Shown here piece by piece: positions 213-48,701 of a stretch of 64,000 nt of DNA; the first letter of the stretch is position 1; every line of letters begins with the position of its first letter. The notes under the pieces are model-generated. The model did not search any database and was not told the origin of the DNA. It saw only the letters and a program-made list of their open reading frames with translations. The stretch spans positions 3,472,001-3,536,000 of the forward strand of contig NZ_BLPG01000001.1 of the NCBI RefSeq assembly GCF_011764445.1, given 5' to 3'. The DNA comes from Phytohabitans rumicis (GTDB lineage: Bacteria > Actinomycetota > Actinomycetes > Mycobacteriales > Micromonosporaceae). Both the position numbers and the translations under genes were made by a program.

Positions 213-294
213 GTCGATCAAGGATTTCCACGCGGATCAAGGGCAAACGGTCGTGGTTTGGAGATCAAACCACGACCGTTTGCCCTTGATCGAC
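213..294. repeat. 57-bp palindromic repeat, copy 1
   Basis: Bases 235-291 form a perfect palindrome: two 26-nt arms starting GATCAAGGGCAAACGG around a 5-nt GAGAT loop. A shorter outer motif GTCGATCAAGGA precedes it at 213. The same unit recurs near 6.5, 17.9, 29.9 and 48.7 kb. This copy lies between the UPF0182 gene and the initiator tRNA, both on the minus strand. Arms with no drift suggest a recent copy or a constrained structure. Confidence 0.9.
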
Positions 295-316
295 GCGCAG
301 AAGGGCGCGCAGGCCC

Positions 317-344
317 ACGCGGCACGCGGCACGCGGCACGCGGC
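317..344. repeat. Short tandem repeat ACGCGGC x4
   Basis: Four head-to-tail 7-bp units ACGCGGC lie between the 57-bp palindrome and the terminator hairpin of the UPF0182 gene. No gene is visible here. Confidence 0.7.
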
Positions 345-348
345 GCGC

Positions 349-376
349 GGCCCGCGCGCAGAGGGGCGCGCGGGCC
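349..376 (-). terminator. Hairpin after the UPF0182 gene
   Basis: An 11-bp G/C-only stem (GGCCCGCGCGC with GCGCGCGGGCC) with a 6-nt loop sits about 10 nt past the stop codon. There is no T-tract, which is usual for hairpin-type ends in GC-rich actinobacteria. Confidence 0.5.
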
Positions 377-386
377 GCGGAGAGCG

Positions 387-3386
387 CTAGCCGCCTGGGG
401 AGGGGATGGGGAGGGGATGTGGGGGTGAGGTGCCTGAGGGCGATGGGGATGGGGTGGCGTTGGGGGTGCCGCCGGCGGCGCGGAGGGCCGTCTGGAACTC
501 GGCCATCGCGTCGTCGAACGCCTTCAGCGCCCGGCCCTCGCGCTCGAAGTCGCCGGCCGCCCGTGCGGCCTTGACCTCCGCCCACGCCTTCTCGACCTTG
601 TCGGCGGCGGCCGCCAGCTCGGGCGTCAGCGTCTGGGTGCCGCCCTGTGTCGGCGGGTTCTCGGTGCCGGTCTGGGGTGGTGGAGCGCCCTGTTTGCCTT
701 GGTCGACCAGTTCCTTGATGCCCGCTTGGAGCGAGTCGGCCAGTACGACGTACGAGCCACCGTCGCCATAGGACATGAGGATCTTTTGGAGCACCGGGTA
801 CGCGTTCTCCTGGTTGCTCTTGACGTACACGGGCTCCACATAGAGCATGCCGTTGCCGAACGGCAGGGACAGCAGGTTGCCGTAGAGCACCTGGGCCTGG
901 TTCGACGAGAGCAGGTTCAGGTCCTGTCTGATCTGGGCGTTAGTGTTCGTCATCCGCTGGTGCACCTGCACCGGGCCGGACACGGCCGTTTGATCGGGCA
1001 GTTCCCACACGTGCAAGACCGGTCTGTCGTCCACATAGGAGCCGGAGATGAGCGCGGCGAGGTTCTGCCGGCCGAGCGGGGTGACCGCCGAGGTGAGCTG
1101 GAATCTCGGCTCGTTCTGGCCCGGGAACTGGGTCAGCAGGTAGTACGGCGGCTGCTTGACGCCGGTGTCGGGCTTGTCGGGGGCGTTGGGCACCTCCCAG
1201 AAGTCCGACCCGTTGAAGAACTCGCCCGGGTCGGTGACGTGGAAGTTCGCCAGCAGGTTGCGCTGCACCTTGAAGAGGTCGGCCGGGTAGCGGAAGTGCG
1301 CGTTCAGCTCGTCCGGGATGTCCGCCTTCGGGATGACCAGGTCGCCGCCGAACGCCTTGTTCCACGCCTTGAGCACCGGGTCGGCGTCGTCGAACTCGTA
1401 CAGCTTGACGGTGCCGTCGTACGCGTCGACGGTGGCCTTGACCGAGTTGCGGATGTAGTTGACGTTCTCCCGGGCCAGCGCGAACGTGCCGACGTTGGTC
1501 AGCTCGTCTGCCGTCTCGGTCTGCAGGTTGACCCGCTTCGAGTACGGGTAGGTGCCCGCCGTCGTGTACCCGTCGAGGATCCACACGATGCGCCCGTCGA
1601 CCTCGGCCGGGTACGGGTCGCCGTCCATGGTCAGGAACGGCGCCACCTTCTCCACCCGGTCCCGCGGGTTGCGGACGTACAGCAGCTTGGAGTTGTCGTT
1701 GACCGCGTCGGAGAGCAGGAAGTTGGACTCCCGCTCCTTGACGCTGTACAGCAGCCGGCGCATGAAGGAGCCGATCTCGACGCCACCCGTGCCGGTGTAC
1801 GTGTAGTTGACGCCCTGCTCGCCGTTGGAGCCGGTCGGCCGGTCGTACTCGACGTGCCGGTCCGGGTCGGCCTGGCCGACGATCGCGTAGTCCGCGCCTT
1901 GCTGGCCGCCGCCGACCTGCTCGCCGTAGTAGATGCGCGGCTGCTCGACCGGGATCTGCTCCTGGTTGGAGGCGCACGCCTCGGGCGTCTGGTCGTCGCC
2001 GAGGAAGCCGGAGACGAAGTACGGCTGCCCGCCGCACACGATCTGGTTGGCCGGCGCGCCGACCAGGCCGTACCCGTGGGTGTAGACCGTGTGGCGGTTG
2101 AGCCAGTTGCCCTGCTGGTCGGTCAGCTGGCTGTAGTTGATCTCGCGGACGCCCACGACGTAGTCCTGGGTCTTGCTGTTGATCGTGTAGCGGTCGATGT
2201 CGAGCTTCTGCCCGAAGTCGTAGAAGCCCCGGACCTGCTGCAACTGGGTGTACGACTGCGAGACGAGCTCGGGGTCGAGCAGCCGGATGTTGGGCACGAC
2301 CGAGGTGTCGGTCGCCAGCGAGGCGGGCGGCGTGAGGTTGCTGGCCGAGTACGCATCGGTCTTCACCGTAGATAGGCCGAAGGCATCTCGGGTGGCGTTG
2401 ATGCCGCGCTCGATGTAGTCGCGCTCCTTGTCCCGGACGCTGGGGTTGACCTCGAAGGTCTGCACCGCCCAGGGATAGATGCCGCCGATCGCGACCGCGG
2501 AGATGGCCAGCAGCGCGAGCGAGACGCCGGGCCAGACCAGATTGCGCATCACCGCGTTGGAGAACACGATGATCGCGATCGCCACGACGATCGAGATGTA
2601 CGCCAGGATCTCCTTGGCCGGCAGGAGCGCGTTGATGTCGGCGTACCCGGCGCCGTAGAGGTTGGGCGGGTTCTGCTCGAGCAGGAGTGCCCGCCGGTCC
2701 AGGACGTACGCGATGGCCTTGAGCAAAACGAAGACCGCCACCAGCGAGGTCAGGTGGGCACGCGCGGCGGTGGTCATCCGGTCGCCGATGCCCTGTAGCC
2801 GCACGCCGCCGAAGACATAGTGGACGGCGAGCGAGCCGAGCACCGACAGCACGACGGCGGTGAAGCCGACGCCGAGCAGGTAGCGCAGGAACGGGTACTC
2901 GAAGACGTAGAACCCGATATCGATCTTGAACTCGGGGTCGGTGACGCCGAACGGCTGCGAGTTGCGGAAAAGCATCCAGTCGCGCCAGCGGCTCTGCCCG
3001 GACAGTCCGGCGAAGAGCCCGATGATGATGGAGAGCACCGCGATCCAGGTGCCGATGCGCGGGCTGAGCACCATCCGGTAGCGCTCCAGCGTGGCCTGCT
3101 CGGCCGAGTGCGGGCGCAGCAGCGGACGGAGCCGATAGGCGAGGTAGAGGTTGCCCCCGACCACCACCGCCATGGCCAGCCCTATCGCGAAGAAGAGCAG
3201 GATCCGCGTGGTCAGCACGTCCGAGAAGACCTGGGTGTACTGGACCTCGTCGAACCACAGCCAGTCGGTCCACACCTCGACCGCCCAGCCCATCAGGGTA
3301 AAGAGCAGGAATACCCCGACGAGTACGCCGATAGTGACGCGCCCCCGCCTGCTCATTCTCGGCAGAGGACTGCTACGCACGACCAC
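387..3386 (-). CDS. UPF0182 family membrane protein
   Basis: This is a 999-residue member of the UPF0182 (COG1615) family, found across actinobacteria and some other phyla; its biochemical role is unknown. About seven membrane segments fill the first third (near residues 17-37, 62-85, 112-130, 165-195, 210-228, 258-280 and 285-310). A large, probably extracytoplasmic domain follows, with the family's conserved blocks such as FYDFGQKLDIDRYTI. The C-terminus is a Pro/Thr/Ser-rich tail after a helical stretch. The GTG start is preferred because GGAG sits 6 nt upstream; an internal ATG ten codons later has no such site. Length is normal for the family. Confidence 0.93.
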   Translation of the reverse strand: MVVRSSPLPRMSRRGRVTIGVLVGVFLLFTLMGWAVEVWTDWLWFDEVQYTQVFSDVLTTRILLFFAIGLAMAVVVGGNLYLAYRLRPLLRPHSAEQATLERYRMVLSPRIGTWIAVLSIIIGLFAGLSGQSRWRDWMLFRNSQPFGVTDPEFKIDIGFYVFEYPFLRYLLGVGFTAVVLSVLGSLAVHYVFGGVRLQGIGDRMTTAARAHLTSLVAVFVLLKAIAYVLDRRALLLEQNPPNLYGAGYADINALLPAKEILAYISIVVAIAIIVFSNAVMRNLVWPGVSLALLAISAVAIGGIYPWAVQTFEVNPSVRDKERDYIERGINATRDAFGLSTVKTDAYSASNLTPPASLATDTSVVPNIRLLDPELVSQSYTQLQQVRGFYDFGQKLDIDRYTINSKTQDYVVGVREINYSQLTDQQGNWLNRHTVYTHGYGLVGAPANQIVCGGQPYFVSGFLGDDQTPEACASNQEQIPVEQPRIYYGEQVGGGQQGADYAIVGQADPDRHVEYDRPTGSNGEQGVNYTYTGTGGVEIGSFMRRLLYSVKERESNFLLSDAVNDNSKLLYVRNPRDRVEKVAPFLTMDGDPYPAEVDGRIVWILDGYTTAGTYPYSKRVNLQTETADELTNVGTFALARENVNYIRNSVKATVDAYDGTVKLYEFDDADPVLKAWNKAFGGDLVIPKADIPDELNAHFRYPADLFKVQRNLLANFHVTDPGEFFNGSDFWEVPNAPDKPDTGVKQPPYYLLTQFPGQNEPRFQLTSAVTPLGRQNLAALISGSYVDDRPVLHVWELPDQTAVSGPVQVHQRMTNTNAQIRQDLNLLSSNQAQVLYGNLLSLPFGNGMLYVEPVYVKSNQENAYPVLQKILMSYGDGGSYVVLADSLQAGIKELVDQGKQGAPPPQTGTENPPTQGGTQTLTPELAAAADKVEKAWAEVKAARAAGDFEREGRALKAFDDAMAEFQTALRAAGGTPNATPSPSPSGTSPPHPLPIPSPGG

Positions 3387-3468
3387 GGTATGCTCCGCAA
3401 GTTGTTGGCTGATCCGCTCCGATCAGGGACCTACAGTACGGGGTGTACCTGAAGGTCATGCCCCTAGG

Positions 3469-4485
3469 TCAGCAGAGCGGCGGCTGACCCCCGTCGCGGA
3501 GCGTCTGCAGCGCGGCCAGCGCCTCGTCGAGGGTCGCCACCTTGATCAATGGGAGCCCCGGGCGGTCATTGCTCTTGGCCTCGGCGCAGTTGTCGGCGGG
3601 CGTGAGAAACACGGTCGCGCCCGCGTTCTTGGCGCCCACGAGCTTCTGCCCGATGCCGCCGATCGGGCCGATGTTTCCGTCGTCGTCGATGGTCCCCGTA
3701 CCCGCTATGATCTTGCCGCCGGTGAGGTCGGCCGGCTCGATCTTGTCGATGATGCCCAGCGCGAACATCAGGCCCGCGCTCGGGCCGCCGATCTTCGACA
3801 GATCGATCTTCAGCTCGAACGGGTGCGGCTGCTTCGGCTCGATCTCCACGCCGATGCGCGGCGGCTCGCCGTCCTGGGCCCGGGTCTTGATCTTCACGGT
3901 CGCGTTGGCGTTTGCGCGGGTGTAGCCGATGGTCAGCTCGGTGCCGCCCGGCTCCGCCCGGATCATCTCGGTCAGCTTCGGCCCGCTGGTCACCGGCTTG
4001 CCGTTCACGGAGGTGAGGATGTCTCCGGCGCGCAGGACGCCCTCGGAGGGTCCGCCGGCGGTGACGTTCTTGACGGTCACCTGCACCGGGTAGCCGAGCT
4101 CGCGCAGCGCCGACGTCTCCGCGCTGCTCTGCGACGCCTTGAAGTCCTCGGCGTTGCGCTCCTCGACCTGCTGCTCGGTCTGGTCCGGCGGGTAGATCAA
4201 CTCGCGCGGCACCACGGCCTCGTCGTCGCTGAACCAGCCCGCGATCGCGGAGAGCAGCTTGACGTCCGGCTGCACGCCGACGGTGGTCAGGCGCAGCTGC
4301 CCCGCCGAGGTCGAGGTCTGCGTGCCGGTGACCTGAATGACCTCTTTGCCGTCCTCTTTACCCAGCGTGTCCACGGTGGGGCCGGGGCCGAGCACCACGT
4401 ACGGGATAGGGGCGGCTAGCACTCCCACGCTCAGCAACGCGGTGATCAGCGCGCCGAGGAGGACAGTGACACCGCGACGTCTCAT
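3469..4485 (-). CDS. YlbL-type PDZ/Lon (S16) membrane-anchored protease
   Basis: The 338-residue protein has one N-terminal membrane segment (residues 8-26), a PDZ domain (about 130-205) and a C-terminal Lon-type S16 peptidase domain (about 225-335). The Ser-Lys dyad is visible: Ser236 in GGPSAG and Lys281 in GGIGQK. This arrangement matches the YlbL family of Gram-positive bacteria, thought to act on membrane or extracytoplasmic substrates. The ATG at 4485 directly precedes the basic MRRRGVTV stretch before the membrane helix, so the longer upstream reading is not used. It lies 82 nt upstream of, and co-directional with, the UPF0182 gene and divergent from the DUF2342 gene. Confidence 0.9.
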   Translation of the reverse strand: MRRRGVTVLLGALITALLSVGVLAAPIPYVVLGPGPTVDTLGKEDGKEVIQVTGTQTSTSAGQLRLTTVGVQPDVKLLSAIAGWFSDDEAVVPRELIYPPDQTEQQVEERNAEDFKASQSSAETSALRELGYPVQVTVKNVTAGGPSEGVLRAGDILTSVNGKPVTSGPKLTEMIRAEPGGTELTIGYTRANANATVKIKTRAQDGEPPRIGVEIEPKQPHPFELKIDLSKIGGPSAGLMFALGIIDKIEPADLTGGKIIAGTGTIDDDGNIGPIGGIGQKLVGAKNAGATVFLTPADNCAEAKSNDRPGLPLIKVATLDEALAALQTLRDGGQPPLC

Positions 4486-4570
4486 GCGCGAAGCGTACCT
4501 ACCCCGGTTTCTCCCTGAGCTGACAGCGCGGACACGGCAGGCGCCAAAACCCGGGCGTACCGTGGATGAC

Positions 4571-5785
4571 GTGCCTGATATCCCGTTCGGCTTCGCTCTC
4601 CCGGGCGCGCAGCCACCCGACCCCAACGATCCGCAGCAGATGCAGCAGTTCATGGCTCAGCTGCAGCAGTTGCTCGCGACCCCCGGCACCGGCCCCGTCA
4701 ACTGGGACCTGGCCCGTCAGGTAGCGGTGAGTCAGCTCGCCGGGACCGGCGACCCGGCGGTCAACGTCTACGAGCGGAACGAGGTCGACGAAGCCCTGCG
4801 CCTGGCCGACCTCTGGCTGGAGCCCGCCTCCGCGCTGCCGTCGGGCATCCACACGTCCGTGGCGTGGACGCGCAACGAGTGGATCTACAACACCCTGGAC
4901 GTCTGGCGCAAGCTGTGCGACCCCGTCGCCGGCCGCATGGTGTCGGCCATGGGCGACCTGGTGCCGCCGGAGGCGCGCGCCCAGCTCGGCCCCATGCAGT
5001 CGATGGTCACCACGCTGGGCGGCGCGCTCTTCGGGGGTCAGCTGGGCCAGGCGCTCGGCTCACTCGCCGCCGAGGTGCTCTCCGCCGGCGACATCGGGCT
5101 TCCGCTCGGACCGGCCGGCACTGCCGCGCTCGTCCCGGCCAACATCAGCGAGTACGGCAAGGGCCTGGAGCTTCCGCTCGATGAGGTACGCCTGTACGTC
5201 GCCATGCGTGAGGCGGCCCACCAGCGGCTCTTCCAGCACGTGCCGTGGCTGCGCGGGCACGTGTTGACGGCGGTGGAGATGTACGCCGCCGGCATCACCG
5301 TCAACCGCGAGGCGATCGAAGACGCGATGGGCCGGATCGACCCGACCAACCCGGAGTCGATGCAGGCGATCGCCCTCGAAGGCATCTTCACGCCCGAGGA
5401 CACCCCGTCGCAGAAGGCGTCGCTGGCCCGGCTGGAAACCGCGCTCGCCCTGGTCGAGGGCTGGGTGTGCCACGTCGTCGACGAGGCGGCCGGCGACCGG
5501 CTGCCCAACGTCCTACGCCTCGGCGAGGCCTTCCGGCGGCGCCGCGCGGCCGGCGGGCCGGCGGAGCAGACGTTCGCCGCGCTGGTGGGACTGGAACTGC
5601 GCCCGCGCCGGCTCCGCGAGGCCGCCACCCTGTGGGCCGCACTGACGGAGCACCGCGGCACGGCCGCCCGCGACTCGCTGTGGGGCCACCCCGACCTCCT
5701 CCCCTCCGATGAGGACTTCGCCGACCCGCAGACCTTCGCGCGATCCCAGCTGGACCTAGGCGACCTGGGAGACCTGGGCCTCTAG
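4571..5785 (+). CDS. Zinc-dependent metalloprotease, DUF2342 (zincin type 2) family
   Basis: About 404 residues. The sequence follows the actinobacterial DUF2342/zincin_2 family: a Gln-rich N-terminus (PNDPQQMQQFMAQLQQLL), a central block VYVAMREAAHQRLFQHVPWL-like in which REAAHQRLF marks the family's metal-site region, and the LEGWVCHVVDEAA helix further on. The family is predicted zincin-like, but the site here (E-A-A-H) is not a plain HEXXH, so activity is inferred only from the family. The start is placed at GTG 4571 (VPDIPFGF), the usual family N-terminus; GTG 4562 is an alternative. It is transcribed away from the YlbL-type gene, with 85 bp between the two starts. Confidence 0.85.
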   Translation: MPDIPFGFALPGAQPPDPNDPQQMQQFMAQLQQLLATPGTGPVNWDLARQVAVSQLAGTGDPAVNVYERNEVDEALRLADLWLEPASALPSGIHTSVAWTRNEWIYNTLDVWRKLCDPVAGRMVSAMGDLVPPEARAQLGPMQSMVTTLGGALFGGQLGQALGSLAAEVLSAGDIGLPLGPAGTAALVPANISEYGKGLELPLDEVRLYVAMREAAHQRLFQHVPWLRGHVLTAVEMYAAGITVNREAIEDAMGRIDPTNPESMQAIALEGIFTPEDTPSQKASLARLETALALVEGWVCHVVDEAAGDRLPNVLRLGEAFRRRRAAGGPAEQTFAALVGLELRPRRLREAATLWAALTEHRGTAARDSLWGHPDLLPSDEDFADPQTFARSQLDLGDLGDLGL

Positions 5786-5791
5786 CGGTCG

Positions 5792-6388
5792 CTAGCCGCC
5801 GAGGAGGGCGCGGGTCGTGTCCCAGCCCTCCACGGCGGGGTCCAGGGTCGCGAGGTCCGCGGGGGTTCGCAGGCGGCGCCACGGCGGGCTTGAACCCACG
5901 TCCGCGGGGCGTGGCGCGGCCGCCCGGATCTCCGCGAGCGCCCCGCTGTCCAGGTCGAACGCCGGCAGCCAGTCCGGTGCCGGCAACCGGGCCGCCACGC
6001 CGAGCAGTCCCGGCCCCGGATCCGCCGGAGCCACCGCCAGCGGGCGGGTGGTCAGCGGCCGCAGCAACTTCCCCACCAACAGTCCCGGTACGTCCGGCGC
6101 GTCCCCTGCCACGGCCGCCGCCTGCTCGTACCCGTCCTTGGCGGCCACCGCGAAGATCGCTCCCGCACTCAGGTCGGGTACGTCGTACACCGGCATGCTC
6201 GGCCAGGCCACCGACTCGGCGAGCGCGCGGTCGGCGGGCAGGGCGGCGATGGCCGGCTCCACCTCGTTGAGGGTCGCGAGCAGGTCGACCAGGTCTTCGG
6301 CCAGCGCCGCCCGCCACGCAGCCGCGTCAACCCCCGGCGGATGCCACCGAACCTCACCAAGCACCGCAATAACCACCCGCCGCGTCAC
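5792..6388 (-). CDS. Conserved hypothetical protein, DUF2064/CofC-like fold suspected
   Basis: A 198-residue soluble protein. I do not firmly recognise it. The layout (N-terminal VVIAVLGEVRW, central AVAGDAPDVPGLLVGKLLRPL, then LAVAPADPGPGLLGVAARL) resembles the nucleotidyl-transferase-like DUF2064/TIGR04282 family, where AGDAPD-type motifs sit in the nucleotide-binding region. The usual GG-Y-LLG block is altered, so it may be a divergent, non-catalytic relative. It is convergent with the DUF2342 gene (6 bp between stops) and divergent from the HIT gene across a palindromic repeat. Confidence 0.6.
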   Translation of the reverse strand: MTRRVVIAVLGEVRWHPPGVDAAAWRAALAEDLVDLLATLNEVEPAIAALPADRALAESVAWPSMPVYDVPDLSAGAIFAVAAKDGYEQAAAVAGDAPDVPGLLVGKLLRPLTTRPLAVAPADPGPGLLGVAARLPAPDWLPAFDLDSGALAEIRAAAPRPADVGSSPPWRRLRTPADLATLDPAVEGWDTTRALLGG

Positions 6389-6483
6389 GCCCCCAGGCTA
6401 TCCCGCCCCGTTCCCCCGCCCCGCTCCCTCTCGCGCCGCGCCCCGCTCCCGCCCCCGCTCCCCGCGCTCCGCCCGCTTTCTGC

Positions 6484-6565
6484 GTCGATCAAGGGCATAC
6501 GGCCGTGCTTTGATCTCTAATCCACGACCGTTTGCCCTTGATCGACGCGGAATCCCTTGATCGAC
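6484..6565. repeat. 57-bp palindromic repeat, copy 2
   Basis: The core at 6487-6543 has the GATCAAGGGC...GCCCTTGATC arms with several mismatches near the middle and an ATCTC loop, so it is inverted relative to copy 1 (loop GAGAT). An outer motif CCCTTGATCGAC closes it at 6565. It fills the divergent space between the 5792-6388 gene and the HIT gene, ending 24 bp before the HIT start, so it must overlap that gene's promoter or leader. Confidence 0.88.
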
Positions 6566-6588
6566 GCGGCGCGGCTACCCTTTCCGGG

Positions 6589-7002
6589 GTGGCCGACTGC
6601 TTGTTCTGTGGCATCGTGGCGGGCTCCGTGCCGGCGTTCGTGGTAGCCGACGAGCCTGCGGGCTTCGCGTTTCTCGACACCCGGCCGGTATTCAAGGGGC
6701 ACACCCTCGTGGTGCCGCGCACGCACGTCGCCGTACTCGCTGATCTGCCCGCCGCGGACCTCGCGCCCTTCTTCGGCCTGGTGCAGCGGCTGGCGGTGGC
6801 GGTCGAGGACGGCCTGGGCGCGGGCGGGACGTTCGTGGCGATGAACAACAAGGTGTCGCAGTCGGTGCCCCACCTGCACGCCCACGTGGTGCCCCGCACC
6901 AAGGGCGACGGCCTGCGCGGTTTCTTCTGGCCCCGCACGAAATACGCCTCCGACGACGAGGCCCGCTCGTACGCCGAGAAGGTCGCCGCGGCACTGGGGT
7001 AA
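6589..7002 (+). CDS. HIT family nucleotide hydrolase/transferase
   Basis: 137 residues with the defining histidine triad HLHAH at 95-99, an N-terminal CLFC pair (Cys4, Cys7) typical of zinc-binding HIT proteins and the NNKVSQSVPHLHAHVVP block. HIT proteins hydrolyse or transfer nucleotide monophosphates from AMP-linked substrates; the exact substrate cannot be told. The GTG at 6589 starts the family N-terminus (VADCLFCGIV). An upstream in-frame ATG at 6532 would translate the palindromic repeat and is rejected. Confidence 0.9.
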   Translation: MADCLFCGIVAGSVPAFVVADEPAGFAFLDTRPVFKGHTLVVPRTHVAVLADLPAADLAPFFGLVQRLAVAVEDGLGAGGTFVAMNNKVSQSVPHLHAHVVPRTKGDGLRGFFWPRTKYASDDEARSYAEKVAAALG

Positions 7003-7054
7003 GGGTCGGTGCCCCGCGGCGTTGCAGGGTCTGGAAGCATGAGAGGAGCTTGCA

Positions 7055-7717
7055 GTGTTTCTGCGGCGCATGAAGTTTGACCTGCCCACCCTCGAGAACG
7101 CGTTGCCCGGACGGTCGGTCGAGATGCCGGTCGCCGAGCGGCACACGGTGCTCGGGACGCCGCTGCGCGGCCCCTGGCCGGCCGGCGCCGAGGTGGCGGT
7201 CTTCGGAATGGGCTGTTTCTGGGGCGCCGAGCGGCTGTTCTGGCGCCTGCCGGGCGTGATCTCGACCTCGGTCGGCTATGCGGGCGGCGTCACCCAGAAC
7301 CCGACGTACGAGGAGGTCTGCTCGGGCCAGACCGGCCACGCCGAGGTCGTCCAGGTCGTGTACGACCCCAGCAAGATCGGCTATGAGCAGCTGCTGAAGG
7401 TCTTCTGGGAGAACCACGACCCGACCCAGGGCATGCGGCAGGGCAACGACGTGGGCACCCAGTACCGTTCGACGATCTACACGACGACCGACGAGCAGCT
7501 TGTGGTGGCGGAGGCGTCCCGCGAGGCGTTCGCGCCGGTGGTCGCCCGCGCCGGCCGCGGCGAGATCACCACGGAGATCGGCCGGCTCGGTGAGTACTAC
7601 TTCGCCGAGGATTACCACCAGCAGTACTTGTCAAGTGACAAAAACCCGAACGGGTACTGCAACCACGGCCCGAACGGGATGACCTGCCCGATCGGGGTAG
7701 CGAAGACTGACGCCTGA
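7055..7717 (+). CDS. msrA: Peptide-methionine (S)-S-oxide reductase
   Basis: A 220-residue MsrA. The catalytic motif GCFWGAE has the nucleophile Cys54; Cys202 and Cys211 in the C-terminal [12 protein letters not shown] segment are placed to act as resolving cysteines. It reduces the S-epimer of methionine sulfoxide in proteins with thioredoxin as the usual donor. The GTG start at 7055 has a GAGAGGAG site 6-7 nt upstream. It follows the HIT gene by 52 nt on the same strand and may share its transcript. Confidence 0.95.
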
Positions 7718-7779
7718 TTGGGATCAGCCAACCAACGCTCGGCGTGACAGACTCGCGGCGAAGGGTGGTGACAGCCAGG

Positions 7780-7983
7780 ATGACGAGTGGAGCCGAACCG
7801 CTGAACGACCCGCAGCGCATCGCCCGCCGCCGCGAGTCGCTCGATGAGCAAGCACGACGTCGGGGGATCCGGCCGATCAAGGATGTGTCGGAGATGGCCC
7901 GTGATGACGTGTTCGAATCCGACGAAGAACTCGACGCGTTCATCGCGTTCGTGTACGCCGAGCGTCAAGCCAACCTGACGTAG
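7780..7983 (+). CDS. Putative antitoxin of a VapBC-type pair
   Basis: A 67-residue, strongly charged protein with an Arg-rich stretch (RIARRRESLDEQARRRG) followed by an acidic half (SDEELDAFIAFVYAERQ). It sits 17 nt before a PIN-domain gene, the usual place and size of a VapB-like antitoxin. I cannot assign a DNA-binding fold from sequence. ATG 7780 is chosen; a GTG at 7744 would add 12 residues. Base composition is slightly lower in GC than the neighbours, which fits an accessory module. Confidence 0.65.
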   Translation: MTSGAEPLNDPQRIARRRESLDEQARRRGIRPIKDVSEMARDDVFESDEELDAFIAFVYAERQANLT

Positions 7984-8000
7984 GCGGTCATGACTACGTC

Positions 8001-8393
8001 GTGTTGGATACCGACGTCGCTTCTCTGATCTTTCGAGAACGCCTCCCGTCATCTATGGCGGCCCGGCTCGCCGGCAAGACCTGGTGCCTGACGTTCGTCA
8101 CGGTCGGCGAGATGACCCCATGGGCAACGCTTCGGGACTGGAGTCGGCGCAACCAAGCGGCGCTTGAGGCGTGGATGTCGCGCTGCATCATGGTGAACGC
8201 GAGTTGGGAGACCGCGCAGACCTGGGGGCGCATGTCCGCCTCCGGCAGGCGCAGGGGCCGCACCCATCCGATCAACGATGCGTGGATCGCGGCATGCTGT
8301 CTGACCGAAGGGCTGCCGCTGGCAACTCTTAACACTAAGGACTACGACGACCTGGCCGTCAACCACGGGCTCACAGTGCTCGCAATGGCCTAG
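8001..8393 (+). CDS. PIN-domain ribonuclease toxin (VapC-like)
   Basis: 130 residues with the acidic residues of a PIN nuclease: Asp3/Asp5 in LDTDVASLI, Glu37 in TVGEM, Asp93 in INDAWIAACC and Asp114 in NTKDYDDL. PIN toxins of the VapC group cleave tRNA or rRNA and are held inactive by the partner encoded just upstream. The start is GTG 8001, which gives the canonical N-terminus. An out-of-frame ATG at 7990 was not used. Confidence 0.88.
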   Translation: MLDTDVASLIFRERLPSSMAARLAGKTWCLTFVTVGEMTPWATLRDWSRRNQAALEAWMSRCIMVNASWETAQTWGRMSASGRRRGRTHPINDAWIAACCLTEGLPLATLNTKDYDDLAVNHGLTVLAMA

Positions 8394-8481
8394 CCGGCCT
8401 CTGCCGGGTTAGCGCCGGCACATAGCGGGCTCTCAGGTACGCCACCGCGCGTTCACATGGTCCGGCACCACGATCACGCTC

Positions 8482-9468
8482 ATGCACAAGGTCCCGGATC
8501 GGCGCACGTTCCTCGCGATGGTCGCTGGGATCGGCGTCGCCGCGGTGGCGGCCTGCGAGTCGTCCTCGTCGGACGGCAAGAGCAACGGCGCCCCCGCCGG
8601 CACGAGCACTACCGCGGCGGCAGAAAGCCAGCCGCTGGTCGAGGTCCCGGCGAGCCCGTCGTTCGCGTTCGCCACGGACCTCAGCAACCGGGGTGGCGGC
8701 GAGGCAGCGCCGATCGAGGATGACTACTGGATCGGCCGGTATCAGGTTACGAACGCGCAGTACAAGGAGTTCGTCGACGGGACCGCGCGCGGCGCCGTGC
8801 CCAAGTACTGGACGGACGGCGCGCCGCCGGCGGACAAGCGGGATCACCCGGTGCTGTTCGTGTCGGCGCAGGACGCCGTGGCGTACTGCGAGTGGCTGAC
8901 CGCCGCGGTCGGTGGCTGGACCGTCCGGCTGCCCACCGAAGCGGAGTGGGAGAACGCCGCTCGCGGCCCGCAGGGGTACGCGTACCCGTGGGGTGACGAG
9001 GCTGGGACCTCGTACGCCTCCGGCAAGATCACCAGTAAGTACAACTACAACGCGGTGTGTGCGGCGTACGCGCTGGCCACCGATGCGTCGCTCGCGTCGA
9101 TCCTGTCCATCGGCGCGGACGGCGGCGTGCAGGGCTGGATCGATCATGACAGCCGGACTGGCTTCGTCTACACGGATTTGTACGCCAAGATCTCCGCCGC
9201 GGGCGGCTACACCACGGCGGTGGGTTCGTACCCGGACGGCCGGAGCCACTACGGCTGCTATGACATGGCGGGCAACGCCTTCGAGTGGACCTCCAGCTTG
9301 ATCACCGCCAGCAACGGCGCGGAGGCGGGCAAGCAGGTGCACGCGGTCCGCGGCGGATCGTGGTACTCCACCGGGCGCAGCTGCCGGACCAGCTACCGCG
9401 GCGAGGGCCGGGATCCGGGCGGCGGCTACAACACCGTCGGTTTTCGCGTCGTCGCCACGAAACGATAG
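8482..9468 (+). CDS. SUMF1/FGE-domain lipoprotein lacking one active-site cysteine
   Basis: 328 residues. The N-terminus has twin arginines (Arg7-Arg8 in DRRTFLAM), a hydrophobic stretch and a lipobox ending at Cys25 (VAAC), so it is probably a Tat-exported lipoprotein. A Ser/Thr/Ala linker leads to a formylglycine-generating-enzyme (SUMF1) domain from about residue 80 (YWIGRYQVTNAQYKEF, RLPTEAEWENAARG, DMAGNAFEWT, VRGGSW). Known FGEs have two cysteines five residues apart after GGSW; here the first is Ser296 and only Cys301 remains. Formylglycine formation is therefore doubtful, and a binding or scaffold role is possible. No sulfatase gene is next to it. Confidence 0.85.
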   Translation: MHKVPDRRTFLAMVAGIGVAAVAACESSSSDGKSNGAPAGTSTTAAAESQPLVEVPASPSFAFATDLSNRGGGEAAPIEDDYWIGRYQVTNAQYKEFVDGTARGAVPKYWTDGAPPADKRDHPVLFVSAQDAVAYCEWLTAAVGGWTVRLPTEAEWENAARGPQGYAYPWGDEAGTSYASGKITSKYNYNAVCAAYALATDASLASILSIGADGGVQGWIDHDSRTGFVYTDLYAKISAAGGYTTAVGSYPDGRSHYGCYDMAGNAFEWTSSLITASNGAEAGKQVHAVRGGSWYSTGRSCRTSYRGEGRDPGGGYNTVGFRVVATKR

Positions 9469-9729
9469 CCACGGAATTGCCGTTGCCGATCACCGCGCCC
9501 AGTGGATAGCGTGGCGGTACACGGGAAGGGAGGTGGTCCGGCTTTGTATAGCAATGGGACTCGTGAGGTGGCTGTCCGCTAGCCGCTGTCCTTGACAGAC
9601 ACGTCGTCGAGACCGTGTGGCAGCGGTGCGGCGAAAATCAAGTCAGCCACCCGACCCCGGGGCAACCGGCCCAGTCCAGCCGGCCCGCGCAGCGCGCGGA
9701 ACCCCGGGGGTCGACCATATAAAGGACCT

Positions 9730-10674: not shown

Positions 10675-11156
10675 CCGACGTCGGCACGCTGCACCACCGT
10701 TCCCGCACCGCCGCGTACGCGGACATCGTGCCGGCCGATGCGCTGGCGACGGTATCGCCGTCGAGCATGGCCGCGTACTGGGTGGAGCGCTGGAAGTACG
10801 AGCGCGACGACTACCAGATGACGGTGGCGACCGACGCGGACGAGATCGTCGGCTTCACCTACCTGGGGCCGGGTGTGGAGCCCGGCACCGGCATGCTCTG
10901 CGCGATCCACGTCGACCCTGCCGCCCAGGGTCGGGGCATCGGTCGCGCGCTGATGGACGACGCGCTGGACAAGCTCGCGGCGGGCGGCTGGCGGCGTGTC
11001 GTGCTCTGGGTGCTCGCCGGCAACACCCACGCCCGCCGCTTCTACGAGCGCGGTGGCTGGTCGGCCGACGGCGGCGAGCGCGACGAGTTCATCGGCCCCG
11101 CGCTGGTGCGGCAGGTCCGGTACGCCCGGACAATCCAGAGCACGTCGTCGCCGTAA
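10635..11156 (+). CDS. GNAT-family N-acetyltransferase
   Basis: 173 residues with the GNAT acetyl-CoA loop ([19 protein letters not shown]) and the following [13 protein letters not shown] segment. The substrate is unknown. The GTG start at 10635 makes it overlap the 3' end of rnz by 40 nt in another frame, so it is probably co-transcribed. A downstream start would cut into the first GNAT strand. Confidence 0.85.
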
Positions 11157-11176
11157 CAGTGCCCAGAAAATCGGCT

Positions 11177-11233: not shown

Positions 11234-11400
11234 GCCGTACCCACCCCAAACCGGGGGAAACGCCTGGCCGGAGGCGTAGGACCGACGGAGGCTTGTCGGC
11301 CACCAAGTCCGGGTGGGTCTTGTGCGGGACACCACGGCACTGGCGGGGCACCGGGGTGTCACCGCGGGGGTGACAGTCTCATTGAGTTGTCGCTTGCAGG

Positions 11401-12792: not shown

Positions 12793-12848
12793 TGCAAGGA
12801 AGGGCCCCTTGTTATCGCTTTTTGCATAACAAGGGGCCCTTCCTTGCA
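12793..12848. repeat. 56-bp GC-rich palindrome, probable bidirectional terminator
   Basis: Two perfect 23-nt arms (TGCAAGGAAGGGCCCCTTGT... and its complement) enclose a 10-nt loop containing TTTTT. It begins 12 bp after the HtrA-like stop and ends 4 bp before the cbs stop, exactly between convergent genes. A role in ending both transcripts is an inference. The form, a perfect long palindrome with its own internal GGGCCCC centre in each arm, is that of a dispersed repeat; only one copy occurs in this window. Confidence 0.8.
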
Positions 12849-12851
12849 AGA

Positions 12852-17784: not shown

Positions 17785-17841
17785 TCCCAGGCCCTGCCCC
17801 TCGGCCCGGACGGGCCGGGGCCGGGCCGAGGCCCGGCGTTC

Positions 17842-17942
17842 GTCGATCAAGGACTTTCGCGTCGATCAAGGGCAAACGGCCGTGGATTGGAGATCAAAGC
17901 ACGACCGTTTGCCCTTGATCGACGGCAAAGTCCTTGATCGAC
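17842..17942. repeat. 57-bp palindromic repeat, copy 3, with full outer arms
   Basis: The core is at 17864-17920 (loop GAGAT). Here the outer arms are also complete: GTCGATCAAGGACTTTCGC on the left and GGCAAAGTCCTTGATCGAC on the right, making a nested palindrome of about 101 bp. It lies between the convergent thiolase and 17971-18291 genes and is the best guide to the full unit. Confidence 0.92.
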
Positions 17943-17970
17943 GGCGCGAGGGCCCGGGGCGCCGCGCGGG

Positions 17971-29337: not shown

Positions 29338-29766
29338 GTGCAGGCCGACGATGTGTTCGGGCGTCTCGCGAACGCCACAGGGGTTTACCGCGGTCGCGGC
29401 GACGGCCCGGAGAGTGGGCCCTTCGTCGCCCGCATGGCGGTGGCGTCGGCCGTACGCGGGCGCGCCGTGACCCTCGACTACGAGGCGACCAACGACCGAA
29501 ACGGCCTCCAGCACGTCGAGCACACCGTCCTGGTCGCCGGCGAGGCGGGCCGACTGGAGCTGCACGTCGCATGCCTGGAGCTACCCGGGGTGGTGCGGTT
29601 CGCGCAGACCGGGCCGGGCGAGTTCACCGCGTACGAAGGCCCGCTGGTAGCCCGCATCGTCCTGCGCCTGCCCCAACCGGGCGCCATCAGCTACGCCTGG
29701 TGGTGGTCCCGCGACGAATCCGACCCCCGCGAGCAGTCCAGAGCCGACCTCCGCCGCACAGGCTGA
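29338..29766 (+). CDS. Conserved hypothetical protein, beta-rich
   Basis: 142 residues. Alternating hydrophobic strands (VTLDYEATNDR, HTVLVAGEAGRLELHVACLEL, FTAYEGPLVARIVLRL) suggest a small beta-barrel, lipocalin-like fold; no family is confidently named. The GTG start sits just 10 nt after a TAGTGT hexamer, so the message could be nearly leaderless. Confidence 0.6.
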   Translation: MQADDVFGRLANATGVYRGRGDGPESGPFVARMAVASAVRGRAVTLDYEATNDRNGLQHVEHTVLVAGEAGRLELHVACLELPGVVRFAQTGPGEFTAYEGPLVARIVLRLPQPGAISYAWWWSRDESDPREQSRADLRRTG

Positions 29767-29856
29767 CCATCTCCCCTCCCGCCCGCGCGCCCCTCGCCCA
29801 AGGACCCGCACGCCGCGGCCACGCCCGCACCTACCCGCACCCGCCCGCTCCCGCGC

Positions 29857-29957
29857 GTCGATCAAGGGCTTGCGCGTCGATCAAGGGCGAACGGCCGTGC
29901 TTCGATCTCTAAACCACGACCATATGCCCTTGATCGGCGCAGGAATCCTTGATCGCC
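29857..29957. repeat. 57-bp palindromic repeat, copy 4
   Basis: Core at 29879-29935 with the ATCTC loop (inverted orientation, as in copy 2) and several arm mismatches, for example CATATGCCC in place of CGTTTGCCC. Outer arms GTCGATCAAGGGCTTGCGC and GCAGGAATCCTTGATCGCC are diverged. It lies between convergent genes (29338-29766 and ppx); the rest of the 277-bp gap is low-complexity GC. Confidence 0.88.
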
Positions 29958-30043
29958 GCCGGCCGCAAGGCCGCGCGGCGCGGCGGCGGGCGGGGCGGCG
30001 GGGTGAGCGGTCGGCCGAGGTGGCGAAAAGGGCGCGGCGGGTG

Positions 30044-32580: not shown

Positions 32581-32603
32581 CTCCCCTCCCCGGCGATCTA
32601 GGT

Positions 32604-32698
32604 CCTATCCGATGGATCTTCGTGGGGCTGCGGCGGGTCCAGGCGACGACCGGCGGCGCCTGGACCACGCCTCGCACCCACAAGATCCATCGGATAGG
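32604..32698. repeat. 95-bp imperfect palindrome between ftsB and eno
   Basis: Outer arms CCTATCCGATGGATCTT and AAGATCCATCGGATAGG match perfectly, and an inner pair GGTCCAGGCG/CGCCTGGACC lies at 32636-32665. Between them pairing is partial. It is longer than needed for a terminator and looks like a mobile or dispersed palindrome inserted between eno and ftsB. Confidence 0.75.
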
Positions 32699-32702
32699 CC
32701 CT

Positions 32703-32728
32703 GGCGCACCCGGACAAAAGGGTGCGCC
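32703..32728 (-). terminator. Hairpin after eno
   Basis: GGCGCACCC and GGGTGCGCC are separated by GGACAAAA, giving a compact 9-bp stem 10 nt past the enolase stop. On the minus strand TTTT lies in the loop and no T-tract follows. Confidence 0.6.
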
Positions 32729-37817: not shown

Positions 37818-37883
37818 TTGGTCCTCCGTTACGGGCGCCTAGTGGTCCTGTTTTGGGGACCACTACGAACATACCGTCGGCTC

Positions 37884-39658: not shown

Positions 39659-40380
39659 AGAGAAACGTCGGTCACCATGTCGGAGGAGATGAACGGCAGG
39701 TTGTAGAAGATCGGGCCCTGCTGGGTGCTGACCGCCATCGGCGCGCCCACCGGCTCGTACCTCGGGTTGACCGAGGCGTTGGTGCGCTCCACCTCGGCGC
39801 CCAGCGCGGTCGAGACCAGGATGGCCGCCTCGGCGAAGATGGCCGAGCCGAACGCCTCGCGCACCTGGGTCACGGTCAGGCCCGCCTGGATCGCCCCGGT
39901 CTTGGCCAGCGCCCCGTAGACCTTCATGATCCCCTCGTCGGTCAGCTCGGTACGCGGGGTGTTCTCGGCGATCACGTTGGAGACGTCGAGCCACGCCGCC
40001 CACAGCTTCACGTACGCGCTGTCGGCCGGGGCCCGCAACGCCTCGGCGATCTGGGCCGGGTCGGTGGGCTCCTGCGGGGCCGGGAGCTTCTTGTCGATGA
40101 CGATGCGCCGGCCCAGCTCCAGGCTGACCATCAGGTCGACGACCTCCTGCCGGGTCACCGGCAGCTCGGCGGTGCCGGGCGACGCCTCGGGCGTGGGGGT
40201 CGCGGTGCCGGTCGCCGCCGCGGCCACGACCTCGTCGTACACCTCGTCGACCTGCTTTTCGGTGATCGTCGTGTCGCCCACGAACGCCGCCTTGCCGTTT
40301 TCCACCCGGCACCCGGCGAGCCCGCCGAGGCCCAGGGCGGCGATGACGACGATGGATGCCAGTCGACGACCACGGTTCAT
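39655..40380 (-). CDS. SurA N-domain-like lipoprotein
   Basis: 241 residues. Signal peptide and lipobox GLAGC (Cys24), followed by GDTTITEKQVDEVYDEVV, the start of the SurA/PrsA-type chaperone N-domain. There is no parvulin (PPIase) domain. A Thr/Pro/Ala-rich insert lies at about residues 58-72. It is 13 nt downstream of mfd and overlaps mazG, a conserved actinobacterial order. Confidence 0.83.
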   Translation of the reverse strand: MNRGRRLASIVVIAALGLGGLAGCRVENGKAAFVGDTTITEKQVDEVYDEVVAAAATGTATPTPEASPGTAELPVTRQEVVDLMVSLELGRRIVIDKKLPAPQEPTDPAQIAEALRAPADSAYVKLWAAWLDVSNVIAENTPRTELTDEGIMKVYGALAKTGAIQAGLTVTQVREAFGSAIFAEAAILVSTALGAEVERTNASVNPRYEPVGAPMAVSTQQGPIFYNLPFISSDMVTDVSL

Positions 40381-40393
40381 GGCCGACACTCTC

Positions 40394-44006
<3,613 letters not shown>

Positions 44007-44102
44007 GGAAACACCTCTTCGGGCACGCACGAACGCCCCGCGCCCGGACCGGACGGGGGTATGTGGCCTCCAGCCTATCCCTCCTGGTGGTATGAGTGTT
44101 AC

Positions 44103-45092
44103 GTGGATAGATGGGGCAAAACGGGCCTACTGGTCATCGGCACGCTGGCGCTGGCCGGCGCGTTCATCGCGGCGTACGTCGGCGGCCTGCACCAACCCAC
44201 GCCCCGGGACGTGCCGGTCGGCGTCGTCCGCGACGACAGCGCCGCGAGCCGGGTGCTCGCCGCGCTGCGCCCGCAGCTCAAGGCCATCGAGTACGCCGAC
44301 GCCGGGGACGCCGCCGAGGCGCTCACCCGGCGCAAGGTGTACGCGGTGCTCGCGTCCACGGACGCCGGCGGCGCGACCGGCCTGACGCTCACCACGGCGA
44401 GTGCCTCCTCGCCCGTGGCGACCGACCTGATCATCCAGGCGACCACCGCGGCAGCCGCCACGGCCGAGGTGCCGTTGACGGTGGCGGACGCCGTACCCGT
44501 GTCGGATGCCGACCCCCGCGGGCTCGTGCCGTTCTATCTGGTCGTGGGCCTAGTGCTCGGCGGCTATCTGGCCTCGACGGCGCTCGGCCTGTCGGCCGGT
44601 ACGGCGCCGGCGGACCTGGACCGGGCCGCGCTGCGGATCGGCACGCTCGCGGTCTTCGCGGTGACCCTGGGGGTCACCGGCGCGATCATCACCGGCCCGG
44701 TGCTGGACGTCTTCACCGCGCACCGGCCGGGGATCGCGATCGCCGGGGCGTTGATCGTCTTCGCCTCCGCCATGATCGCGGCGGCGGTACAGAGCTGGCT
44801 CAGCCTCTTCGGCACCGGGCTGGTGATCCTGCTGCTGGTCGTGCTCGGCAACCCGGGATCGGGCGGCATCTACCCGCCGGAGTTCCTGCCGACCTTCTTC
44901 CGCGGCATGCACCGCTGGGACCCGCCGGGACTGGGCACCGACCTGATCAAGTCGGTCGTGTACTTCGACCGGAAGGCGGCCGCGTGGCCGATCACCGCGC
45001 TGGCCCTCTGGGCGCTGGCCGGCGTGGTCGCTCTGCTCGCCCGCCCCGTCCTGCGCCCCGTCTCAGCGCCGATTCAGCCTTCCGACCTTTGA
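44103..45092 (+). CDS. ABC-2/YhgE-like membrane protein
   Basis: 329 residues. One N-terminal helix (about 7-27), a soluble extracytoplasmic segment of about 110 residues (VPVGVVRDDSAASRVL) and five more helices from about 145, ending in basic residues. This is the layout of DUF3533/ABC-2-type and YhgE/Pip-like membrane proteins; no ATPase is adjacent. The GTG at 44103 gives VDRWGKTGLLVIG; it is 96 bp past the divergent mfd start. Confidence 0.72.
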   Translation: MDRWGKTGLLVIGTLALAGAFIAAYVGGLHQPTPRDVPVGVVRDDSAASRVLAALRPQLKAIEYADAGDAAEALTRRKVYAVLASTDAGGATGLTLTTASASSPVATDLIIQATTAAAATAEVPLTVADAVPVSDADPRGLVPFYLVVGLVLGGYLASTALGLSAGTAPADLDRAALRIGTLAVFAVTLGVTGAIITGPVLDVFTAHRPGIAIAGALIVFASAMIAAAVQSWLSLFGTGLVILLLVVLGNPGSGGIYPPEFLPTFFRGMHRWDPPGLGTDLIKSVVYFDRKAAAWPITALALWALAGVVALLARPVLRPVSAPIQPSDL

Positions 45093-45188
45093 GACATGAC
45101 TCACCAGTTTGACCTGCTAGCAACGTGGCCTCGGTAACATCTTGGTGTCGGACAGCGCCGTCCTTCGTACTCAGGTAAGGAGCGCACG

Positions 45189-47999
<2,811 letters not shown>

Positions 48000-48051
48000 C
48001 CCCGCCGCCTCCCGCCTCTCCCCGCCCCGCCGCCTCGCCCCGGCTCTCCCC

Positions 48052-48112
48052 GGTGATCAGGGAGTGGCTCGGGCGTGTTGCGGCGGGGCGAGAGAGCAGC
48101 TCCCTGATCACC
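48052..48112. repeat. 61-bp TGATCAGGGA palindrome, intergenic copy
   Basis: Arms GGTGATCAGGGAG and CTCCCTGATCACC, 61 bp in total. It starts 52 bp after the ppc stop and is closely related to the unit inside the MocR gene, and shares arms with the one at 63616. Possible transcription terminator of ppc. Confidence 0.85.
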
Positions 48113-48178
48113 GAGATCTTGGGGGCTGTGGCGGTGCCCTTCGCCCTCACTTCCAGAGGGTGCCCCTGCCTGCCGCAC

Positions 48179-48196
48179 GGGGCGTGAGTAGGGCGG
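48179..48196. repeat. Half copy of the GAGTAGGGCG palindrome
   Basis: GGGCGTGAGTAGGGCG-type sequence matching one arm of the palindrome at 48503-48562. No matching second arm is close by, so it is a solo arm. Confidence 0.55.
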
Positions 48197-48244
48197 TACA
48201 GCGCAAGATGCGCCGCCGATGGTGGCGCCGTTTCCCTGATTGCC

Positions 48245-48308
48245 GCGGTGATCATGAGGTTAGCGTCAGGGCAAGCGCTCTCCCTAACGCTAACTTCATG
48301 ATCACCGC
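48245..48308. repeat. 64-bp TGATCATGA palindrome
   Basis: 22-nt arms (GCGGTGATCATGAGGTTAGC... and ...GCTAACTTCATGATCACCGC) with one G-T wobble, and the stem can continue inward through CAGGG/CCCTA. Single copy in this window. Confidence 0.8.
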
Positions 48309-48319
48309 AGGCTGGCGTC

Positions 48320-48429
48320 GGTCGCTCGACTTGGTGGGGCGTACCGGGATCTTGGGCCCGGTTATGTCGGACACGTCCGGACGCAAGATCCCGCCCTGCC
48401 CCACCAAGTCCACTGGCCGGCAAGCGACC
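48320..48429. repeat. Nested palindrome ACTTGGTGGGGC / GATCTTG
   Basis: Three concentric arm pairs: GGTCGCT/AGCGACC (outer), GACTTGGTGGGGC/GCCCCACCAAGTC (48328-48340 and 48398-48410) and GGGATCTTG/CAAGATCCC (48346-48354 and 48384-48392). A fourth palindrome type in this gap. Confidence 0.75.
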
Positions 48430-48480
48430 AACCGGCGCCGCTTGACAGCACCCAGGAACCCTTGACTACCCGGCCTTGAT

Positions 48481-48562
48481 GGCGCCCCTGTTGGCGGCGC
48501 GCGGGTGAGTAGGGCGCCCCCATACCCGGCATCGCGGGAACAGGGGCGCCCTACTCACGCCC
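48481..48562. repeat. Two overlapping palindromes sharing one arm
   Basis: GGGTGAGTAGGGCGCCCC (48503-48520) pairs with GGGGCGCCCTACTCACGCCC (48543-48562). Alternatively GGCGCCCCTGTT (48481-48492) pairs with AACAGGGGCGCC (48539-48550), using the same GGGGCGCC. The two foldings exclude each other. Confidence 0.75.
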
Positions 48563-48620
48563 GTGTCACGGCCGAGACCGGCCGCCCCGCAGCGCGCTCC
48601 CCCAGCCCACGATCCCCTCC

Positions 48621-48701
48621 GCGATCAAGGAAAACGCCGTCGATCAAGGGCAAACGGTCGTGGTTTGGAGATCAAAGCACGACCGTTTGCCCTTGATCGA
48701 C
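48621..48701. repeat. 57-bp palindromic repeat, copy 5
   Basis: Core at 48642-48698 with GAGAT loop and nearly perfect arms (one mismatch near the loop, GGTTTG against CAAAGC). The outer left motif GCGATCAAGGAAAACGCC remains, the right outer arm is lost. It is the last element before the ABC operon's 3' end. The whole 47999-48752 gap contains no gene I can support, only palindromes and a GGGCGGAAAGAG-type purine-rich repeat at 48702-48750. Confidence 0.9.

Follow-up and report, generated by a model that had tools for sequence, protein, structure and literature searches.

In bacterial bidirectional terminators, a stable hairpin with a C-rich lead follows the stop codon, in many cases where two genes converge. 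NEMIS/Correia and ERIC are co-transcribed, MITE-type hairpins of about 100 bp with terminal inverted repeats. NEMIS and ERIC are named in PMC1590033. The CGTC-tagged REPs have stems of 8-9 bp, an unpaired tag, common head-to-head pairs and no known dedicated transposase (PMC3733652); in a word search of the text of that paper, the terms 'actinobacter' and 'Streptomyces' are absent. The literature listings searched contain no account of the repeat described here, which is best read as a new REP/MITE-like palindromic element. With a probability of roughly 0.6, it is a non-autonomous element that is moved in trans and acts as a transcribed 3'-end hairpin.

The copied unit and its edges

The window, a stretch of 64,000 nucleotides from Phytohabitans rumicis, contains five 57-bp cores, and none were found in 100 dinucleotide shuffles. 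An earlier note had described each core as 26-nt arms around the loop GAGAT or its complement ATCTC, with three copies between convergent genes, one between divergent genes and one between co-directional genes, and these descriptions were confirmed copy by copy; copy 1 counts as co-directional because the tRNA and the gene that flank it are both on the minus strand. The note had also proposed outer arms that extend each copy to about 101 bp, which is true of the head side in all five copies, whereas the symmetry was lost on inspection, as the tail-side arm occurs in two of five (cores starting at 17864 and 29879). The features of the window are as follows.

212-295, plus strand: copy 1, 84-bp unit, core 235-291, loop GAGAT on the plus strand; the unit is missing at the matching gaps of 22 bp in G103 and 73 bp in G031
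296-386, plus strand: G-rich tail of copy 1, outside the copied unit, reaching the stop codon of a UPF0182 gene (387-3386, minus strand)
6400-6482, minus strand: tail of copy 2, C-rich on the plus strand; missing in the relatives read
6483-6566, minus strand: copy 2, 84-bp unit with core 6487-6543; its neighbouring genes diverge, and the one on the right encodes a HIT-domain protein
17841-17924, plus strand: copy 3, 84-bp unit, core 17864-17920, convergent, beside a thiolase gene
17925-17943, plus strand: copy 3, the optional second arm on its tail side
29767-29874, minus strand: tail of copy 4, C-rich on the plus strand, from the stop codon of 29338-29766; includes the optional tail-side arm
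29875-29958, minus strand: copy 4, 84-bp unit, core 29879-29935, convergent
48619-48702, plus strand: copy 5, 84-bp unit, core 48642-48698, convergent
48703-48751, plus strand: copy 5, G-rich tail that extends as far as the stop side of an ABC2-type gene (48752-49474, minus strand)

The copied unit has the layout CGYCGATCAAGG-N7-CGYC-GATCAAGGGC-stem-loop-stem-GCCCTTGATC-GRCG, in which 12-bp terminal inverted repeats, CGYCGATCAAGG, stand at both edges as in a MITE and flank a hairpin with the loop GATCTC and a 26-bp core stem; the edges of the unit consensus carry no GTAG. Because the outer arm is asymmetric, being nearly constant on the head side (127 of 129 copies in the source genome) and optional on the tail side (46 of 129), the unit measures 84 bp and is lengthened to about 103 bp in about one third of copies. 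Between the motifs CGYC (columns 2-5) and GRCG (columns 63-66), 58 of 72 cells from 18 chosen sequences show standard pairing, a figure that leans towards structure because the model was built from copies pre-filtered for pairing, the cut-off being 18 or more of 26 pairs in two genomes and above 14 of 24 at other loci, with 18 of 21 rows used after two duplicates and one copy from the same-genus relative G057 were omitted.

The edges are sharp. In close pairs of copies (176 from the source genome and 77 from G057, one segmental duplicate being excluded), identity is at least 0.9 at positions -23 and +4 and falls to 0.23-0.48 just beyond, and the flanks of the copies are unrelated to each other. 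Such edges, together with the terminal inverted repeats and the high copy number, would suit an ordinary MITE that arose by deletion from a DDE insertion sequence whose ends are CGYCGATCAAGG. This is nevertheless unlikely, as no target-site duplication of 2-9 bp was found in 82 source-genome copies, 45 others with a second tail-side arm having been excluded, or in 126 copies of G057 (best z 2.4 and 2.0, 175 settings each), and membership in the classical MITEs fails for want of that duplication. A search of plasmids and phages with one copy as query, and of viral contigs with the pattern, also gave no match, and a plasmid, phage or viral source was rejected.

Copy number and empty sites

The five copies are part of a far larger family, as a whole-genome search for the core, which the earlier note had proposed, returned 527 exact cores and none with the reversed control. 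Positions were listed for 100 of these 527; among the matches listed, no exact core lies at 0.92-1.76 Mb of contig 1. In five relatives of the same genus, exact cores number 339 in G057 and 0 or 1 in each of G031, G077, G091 and G103; more than 500 copies in one genome and near-absence from four of five relatives give the family the look of a REP-like mobile element. The structure model matches 69 of 250 sampled genomes of the taxonomic family, each with a copy count that is to be read as 'at least', since up to 20 candidates were scored per genome; among the best 20 candidates, every one of the four copy-poor genomes of the genus has 1-7 weaker matches to it. The initial candidate scoring covered 40 of 578 candidates. 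At the window copies, no Rfam-type RNA family was found at gathering scores, and a known RNA family was rejected as the identity of the repeat.

Anchored comparisons with relatives, 44 in number and covering 21 copies, with copies 1 to 4 of the window among them, show the unit in none; 36 of the 44 target gaps are 150 bp or shorter, and the matching gaps of the source genome span 169-903 bp. Three target rows had been flagged with a hairpin, of which two were read and belong to a different hairpin family, the third being the same stretch as one of them. Within the window, a gap of 181 bp at copy 2 corresponds to one of 11 bp in G103, and 178 bp correspond to 17 bp in G031; the site is empty in G091 and G077 too; the site of copy 3 is a 65-bp gap without the unit in G057. 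At the site of copy 4, G103 has a 9-bp gap and G057 carries a copy of its own type at the same gene 3' end. A copy is present in the source genome or in G057, whose loci were chosen for containing copies, at 17 gene 3' ends, and in both genomes at four of these; they could be old common copies that were later homogenised, which counts against the preferred reading. An unrooted tree of one 3.6-kb region tentatively places G057 as the outgroup. Five further intervals examined had been picked for hairpins already seen there.

Position and orientation relative to genes

As with REP elements, the copies are numerous, intergenic, and prefer gene 3' ends and convergent gaps. With genes called by a simple, purpose-made caller and one unrelated 54-bp hairpin removed, 24 of 49 copies lie in convergent gaps, compared with 64 of 372 gaps overall (p = 2e-6). 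One particular end of the unit faces the stop codon: in tandem gaps, the arrangement with tail to stop and head to start occurs 35 times and the opposite 15 times (p = 0.007), copies inside called genes (6 of 62 and 1 of 67) being excluded from the orientation counts. Neighbouring copies 300-1200 bp apart stand almost only head to head ('-+' in 8 of 8 pairs in the source genome and 40 of 44 in G057, '+-' in none), counts that were reached by 0 of 2000 shuffles in either genome.

Stem covariation between and within genomes

The loop and the ends of the unit are kept across genomes, and the middle of the stem is genome-specific. In copies of 11 genomes, taken without selection for pairing, 636 of 820 stem cells are paired against a shuffled mean of 481, and 0 of 1000 shuffles reach the observed value. 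When shuffling is confined within genomes, 4 of 1000 shuffles of the 11-genome set reach the observed pairing, and the same is true of 154 of 1000 for the source genome and 470 of 1000 for G057; the stem thus covaries between genomes and hardly within them. In G047, G048 and G068, the middle of the stem is often unpaired.

An arm middle that is alike within a genome and different between genomes, with so little covariation within, is what might be seen at a DNA site that organises the chromosome through a protein whose recognition sequence is species-specific, and the core-free interval of contig 1, among the matches listed, points the same way. Such a site, which the earlier note had offered as a nucleoid or chromosome-organisation role, is very unlikely, however, given that the sampled copies of the source genome are divided evenly between the strands (62 against 60, with one of 123 undecided), that they are tied to gene ends, and that four genomes of the same genus nearly lack them.

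Flanking composition and RNA signals

The stretch from -80 to -41 before the hairpin has the C-rich, G-poor composition of Rho-dependent terminator leads, with C at 0.52 and G at 0.25 in 130 source-genome copies, compared with 0.34 for both behind 254 copy-free genes. A U-tract after the hairpin is not clear, with T at +1 to +10 on the GATCTC strand amounting to 0.06 in the source genome, 0.22 in G057 and 0.07 in others. In two genomes, a strand-specific wobble test comes out in favour of the GATCTC strand (G.U 179 against A.C 84, and 310 against 56), and in 11 others it runs opposite (42 against 77); the samples were 121 of 123 sequences, partly picked by likeness to one window copy, 116 of 122, and 82 of 85 typed with three ambiguous, and of the copies listed for this last sample, those of G031, G036, G270 and G296 were left untyped, together with two from G027 and one from G010. 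Since the direction is reversed in those 11 genomes, wobble asymmetry was dropped as proof of RNA, and the RNA hairpin suggested in the earlier note is upheld as a plausible role of the copies at 3' ends, with the wobble support withdrawn.

The 3'-end preference, the orientation, the C-rich lead and the stable hairpin would equally be expected of a terminator or mRNA 3'-end module selected at many genes and spread mainly by recombination, with mobility minor, as would the four 3' ends common to two species and the stem covariation between genomes. This explanation is quite improbable: in G103, G031 and G077 the unit is missing at the same genes wherever these could be anchored, the edges are sharp and the flanks unrelated, and neither the U-tract nor the wobble test speaks for it.

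A proposed mover in trans

The earlier note had proposed looking for a RAYT/IS200-like transposase, and this candidate was rejected, as a search for the Y1 domain PF01797, which gave matches in 5 of 14 control genomes, gave none in the six genomes examined from the genus; without a Y1 transposase, membership in REP/RAYT fails. A resident reverse transcriptase that copies the transcribed hairpin in a retrotransposition-like manner could account for orientation relative to transcription, a variable low-complexity tail and the lack of target duplication, and is still extremely doubtful, because RVT_1 is without a match in seven copy-bearing genomes (G057, G047, G048, G068, G164, G216 and G283) and has one in the source genome; a reverse-transcriptase mover was rejected on this ground. 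Nor was a recurrent neighbour gene seen: the first 25 clusters of 661 proteins encoded near copies, judged from their sequences, hold only ordinary families and no transposase-like one.

The earlier proposal of a REP/MITE-like element moved in trans is therefore retained for its high copy number, sharp edges, empty sites and lineage-specific amplification, and set aside as regards Y1/RAYT and target duplication. For such an element, an enzyme encoded elsewhere would recognise the hairpin and its ends, and copies would be inserted without target duplication, chiefly into short intergenic gaps behind stop codons. In settled copies, the tail tends to face the stop codon of a gene that runs in the same direction as the GATCTC-loop strand; a transcript would pass first through the C-rich stretch and next through a very stable hairpin, and the copy probably terminates or shields the mRNA 3' end, perhaps with Rho. 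It is possible, more tentatively, that a widespread class of actinobacterial mobile hairpins exists, without Y1 or duplications, aimed at 3' ends in a fixed orientation, with a genome-specific stem code that coevolves with the mover.

If the preferred reading of a REP/MITE-like element moved in trans is true, the Micromonosporaceae possess an equivalent of REP elements that is their own, with a predicted mover. Some of the breaks in the assemblies of these high-GC genomes may be due to the repeat, since several of the contigs listed start or end inside a copy. The repeat would also provide natural 3'-end insertions that one species has and the next lacks, for testing the effects of hairpins on mRNA ends in high-GC bacteria.

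Comparison with known systems

Like bidirectional terminators, the copies are stable hairpins behind stop codons, often convergent and with a C-rich lead, as opposed to which they have no clear U-tract, recur with similar sequence at hundreds of sites and are missing at the same genes of relatives. With NEMIS/Correia and ERIC they share a hairpin of about 100 bp with terminal inverted repeats and, by analogy, presumably co-transcription; they differ in having no target duplication and no Rfam match, a distinction drawn by description, not sequence. A CGTC-like motif that opens the unit, frequent head-to-head pairs and the lack of a known dedicated transposase recall the CGTC-tagged REPs (PMC3733652), while here CGYC is mostly paired with GRCG and the core stem measures 26 bp. 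While the unit departs from REP/REPIN with RAYT in its 84 bp and 26-bp core stem, as opposed to 20-40 bp, and in having neither an unpaired GTAG nor Y1 in six genomes, it resembles these systems in its hundreds of intergenic palindromes, its preference for 3' ends and convergent gaps, its head-to-head neighbours and its lineage-specific sequence.

Copy number and hairpin structure

All five 57-bp cores of the earlier note, with their 26-nt arms around a GAGAT or ATCTC loop, were recovered in the window where it had placed them, and none of 100 shuffles yielded a core. Folding energies of the five hairpins lie between -51 and -87 kcal/mol, with z scores from -6 to -16. The genome-wide count proposed in that note showed that these are not merely five copies, as the P. 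rumicis genome (10.7 Mb, three contigs) holds 527 exact cores, with no matches to a reversed-control pattern. A shorter end motif gave 595 matches in this genome, catching other hairpin families too. Length was 57 bp in 131 of 133 distinct copies, with 54-58 bp permitted by the search. Contig C1 carries no exact core over 0.84 Mb (917,753-1,758,801), as opposed to 80 in the next 0.94 Mb.

The unit edges were defined on copies aligned by the loop, using close pairs (no more than 4 of 80 bases different; 176 in P. rumicis and 77 in G057, a comparison genome judged from copy sequence and spacing on its first contig to be Micromonospora sp. CPCC 205371). Because identity in these pairs is high only from -23 to +4 and falls to background immediately beyond, the copied unit is 84 bp long, ending in CGYCGATCAAGG and its reverse complement. 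A second arm, GATCAAGG, with its start 19 bases ahead of the core, accompanies the head side of 127/129 P. rumicis and 134/136 G057 copies, and the tail side of 46/129 and 2/136, respectively; of the outer arms proposed earlier, the head-side one stands and the tail-side one does not belong to the copied unit. The G-rich low-complexity tail that follows lies outside the copied part, three A's at +8 to +10 are weakly conserved beyond the edge in P. rumicis, and a target duplication was looked for at the unit edges and not found.

Loop and stem

The loop contains GATC in all 82 sequences compared and was not set by the search pattern, unlike the unit ends, which were fixed by GATCTAGGGC. Mid-arm sequence is characteristic of each genome, and in three genomes (G047, G048 and G068) the two arms are often unlike each other. 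Across 82 sequences taken irrespective of pairing, the two arms match in 636 of 820 cells; shuffles average 481 when made over all genomes (0/1000 reaching 636) and 619 when made inside genomes (4/1000). Covariation was absent inside P. rumicis and inside G057, where 154/1000 and 470/1000 shuffles, respectively, reached the observed value. Since the arms covary across genomes but not inside either of these two, the stem changes between genomes as a whole.

Stem mismatches on the GATCTC strand favour G.U over A.C in P. rumicis (179 vs 84) and G057 (310 vs 56); this excess was dropped as evidence for RNA, as its direction is reversed in 11 other genomes (42 vs 77; 82 sequences), and it probably reflects a few founder columns.

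Position relative to genes

According to our own gene calls, convergent gaps take up 24 of 49 copies, compared with 64 of 372 gaps overall. The tail points towards a stop codon in 43/56 copies in P. rumicis and 47/66 in G057, and the head in 37/56 and 33/66; in tandem gaps, tail-to-stop with head-to-start occurs 35 times and the opposite arrangement 15 times. On the GATCTC strand, the lead before the hairpin is C-rich (C 0.52, G 0.25), as opposed to 0.34 each behind copy-free genes. This lead may serve both strands, because the far-side G-rich stretch is equally marked in other genomes.

Copies 300-1200 bp apart stand head to head ('-+') in 8/8 pairs in P. rumicis and 40/44 in G057, and never in the '+-' order. 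Five head-to-head intervals, chosen for hairpins seen earlier, were read, and other hairpin families lie between the two units. Nested palindromes of two head-to-head units with inner hairpin families occur in three stretches (L074 7594-8646, L082 388-960 and L087 704-1096). In another (L090 2012-3539; C1 about 2,642,012-2,643,539), two inverted copies, near 2.642 and 2.6435 Mb, enclose a segment that runs the opposite way from G103 and G077 and, in G031, from its right-hand flank, which suggests recombination between the bounding copies.

Other elements in the window are as follows; the first three hairpin families recur elsewhere in the genome.

9519-9719, + strand: Ms_IGR-5 actinobacterial sRNA (Rfam match, 76.6 bits)
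12793-12848: large hairpin, family TGCAAGGAAGGGC..
48245-48308: large hairpin, family GATCATGRRGTTAGCG..
48505-48558: large hairpin, family GTGAGTAGGGCGCCCC..
32589-32713: fourth additional large hairpin

A second GATC-ended palindrome family, TGATCARGGCGTCCYTCAAGTCG.., is found on C1 and C2 (e.g. C1:3409466-3409517), with 31 exact copies in P. rumicis, 4 in G057 and none in 20 other tested genomes.

Occurrence in related genomes

Within the same-genus set, G057 carries 339 exact cores and the four other genomes 0 or 1 each, with weaker covariance-model matches in G031 (at least 4), G077 (at least 1), G091 (at least 7) and G103 (at least 2). Flanking DNA could be matched in at least one relative for 21 of the 64 copies in the P. 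rumicis stretches compared, giving 44 anchored rows (G103 19, G031 12, G077 9, G057 4). In this search for empty sites, as suggested earlier, the unit is present in none of these rows; the target gap is at most 150 bp in 36/44, where the P. rumicis gap is 169-903 bp.

Four out of 17 gene 3' ends that bear a copy in P. rumicis or G057 are occupied in both genomes; one of the four lies inside the window, and at that site G103 and G031 have no copy. At these four, the orientation is the same (by reading the sequences), the stem is typical of each species and the leads are unrelated. With the tree unrooted, the same 3' end may have been hit by repeated insertion, or these may be old copies homogenised inside each genome.

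A covariance model, built from 18 sequences filtered for pairing (within this filtered set, both sides changed in 13/26 pairs; 0/500 shuffles equal), matches 69 of 250 sampled family genomes in 18 of 44 genera. The exact GATCTAGGGC form occurs in 15/300 genomes, with at most 87 copies; G031 and G036 have one match each, missing the usual loop. Pseudonocardia bannensis has one copy, and the MAG Micromonosporaceae CR_Sed_300A_bin.20, which is G027 as judged by sequence identity, has several. In a class sample of 296 genomes, three from outside the family carry possibly related hairpins with similar ends and different stems.

Mechanism and classification

The unit is sharp-edged, multiplied, lineage-specific and oriented to gene 3' ends, without detectable target duplication. 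A mover acting in trans would recognise the hairpin, and a settled copy would act as an mRNA 3'-end or termination hairpin, as its place, direction, C-rich lead and stability suggest. The RAYT/IS200-like transposase sought on the earlier note's proposal did not appear, the genus sample holding no Y1 enzymes, and several copy-bearing genomes lack reverse transcriptases.

Tests of membership failed for REP/RAYT, for classical MITEs and for the CGTC REPs (PMC3733652). The unit is filed as a new variant among dispersed palindromic mobile repeats. In its working it resembles REP elements, whose equivalent in Micromonosporaceae it may be.
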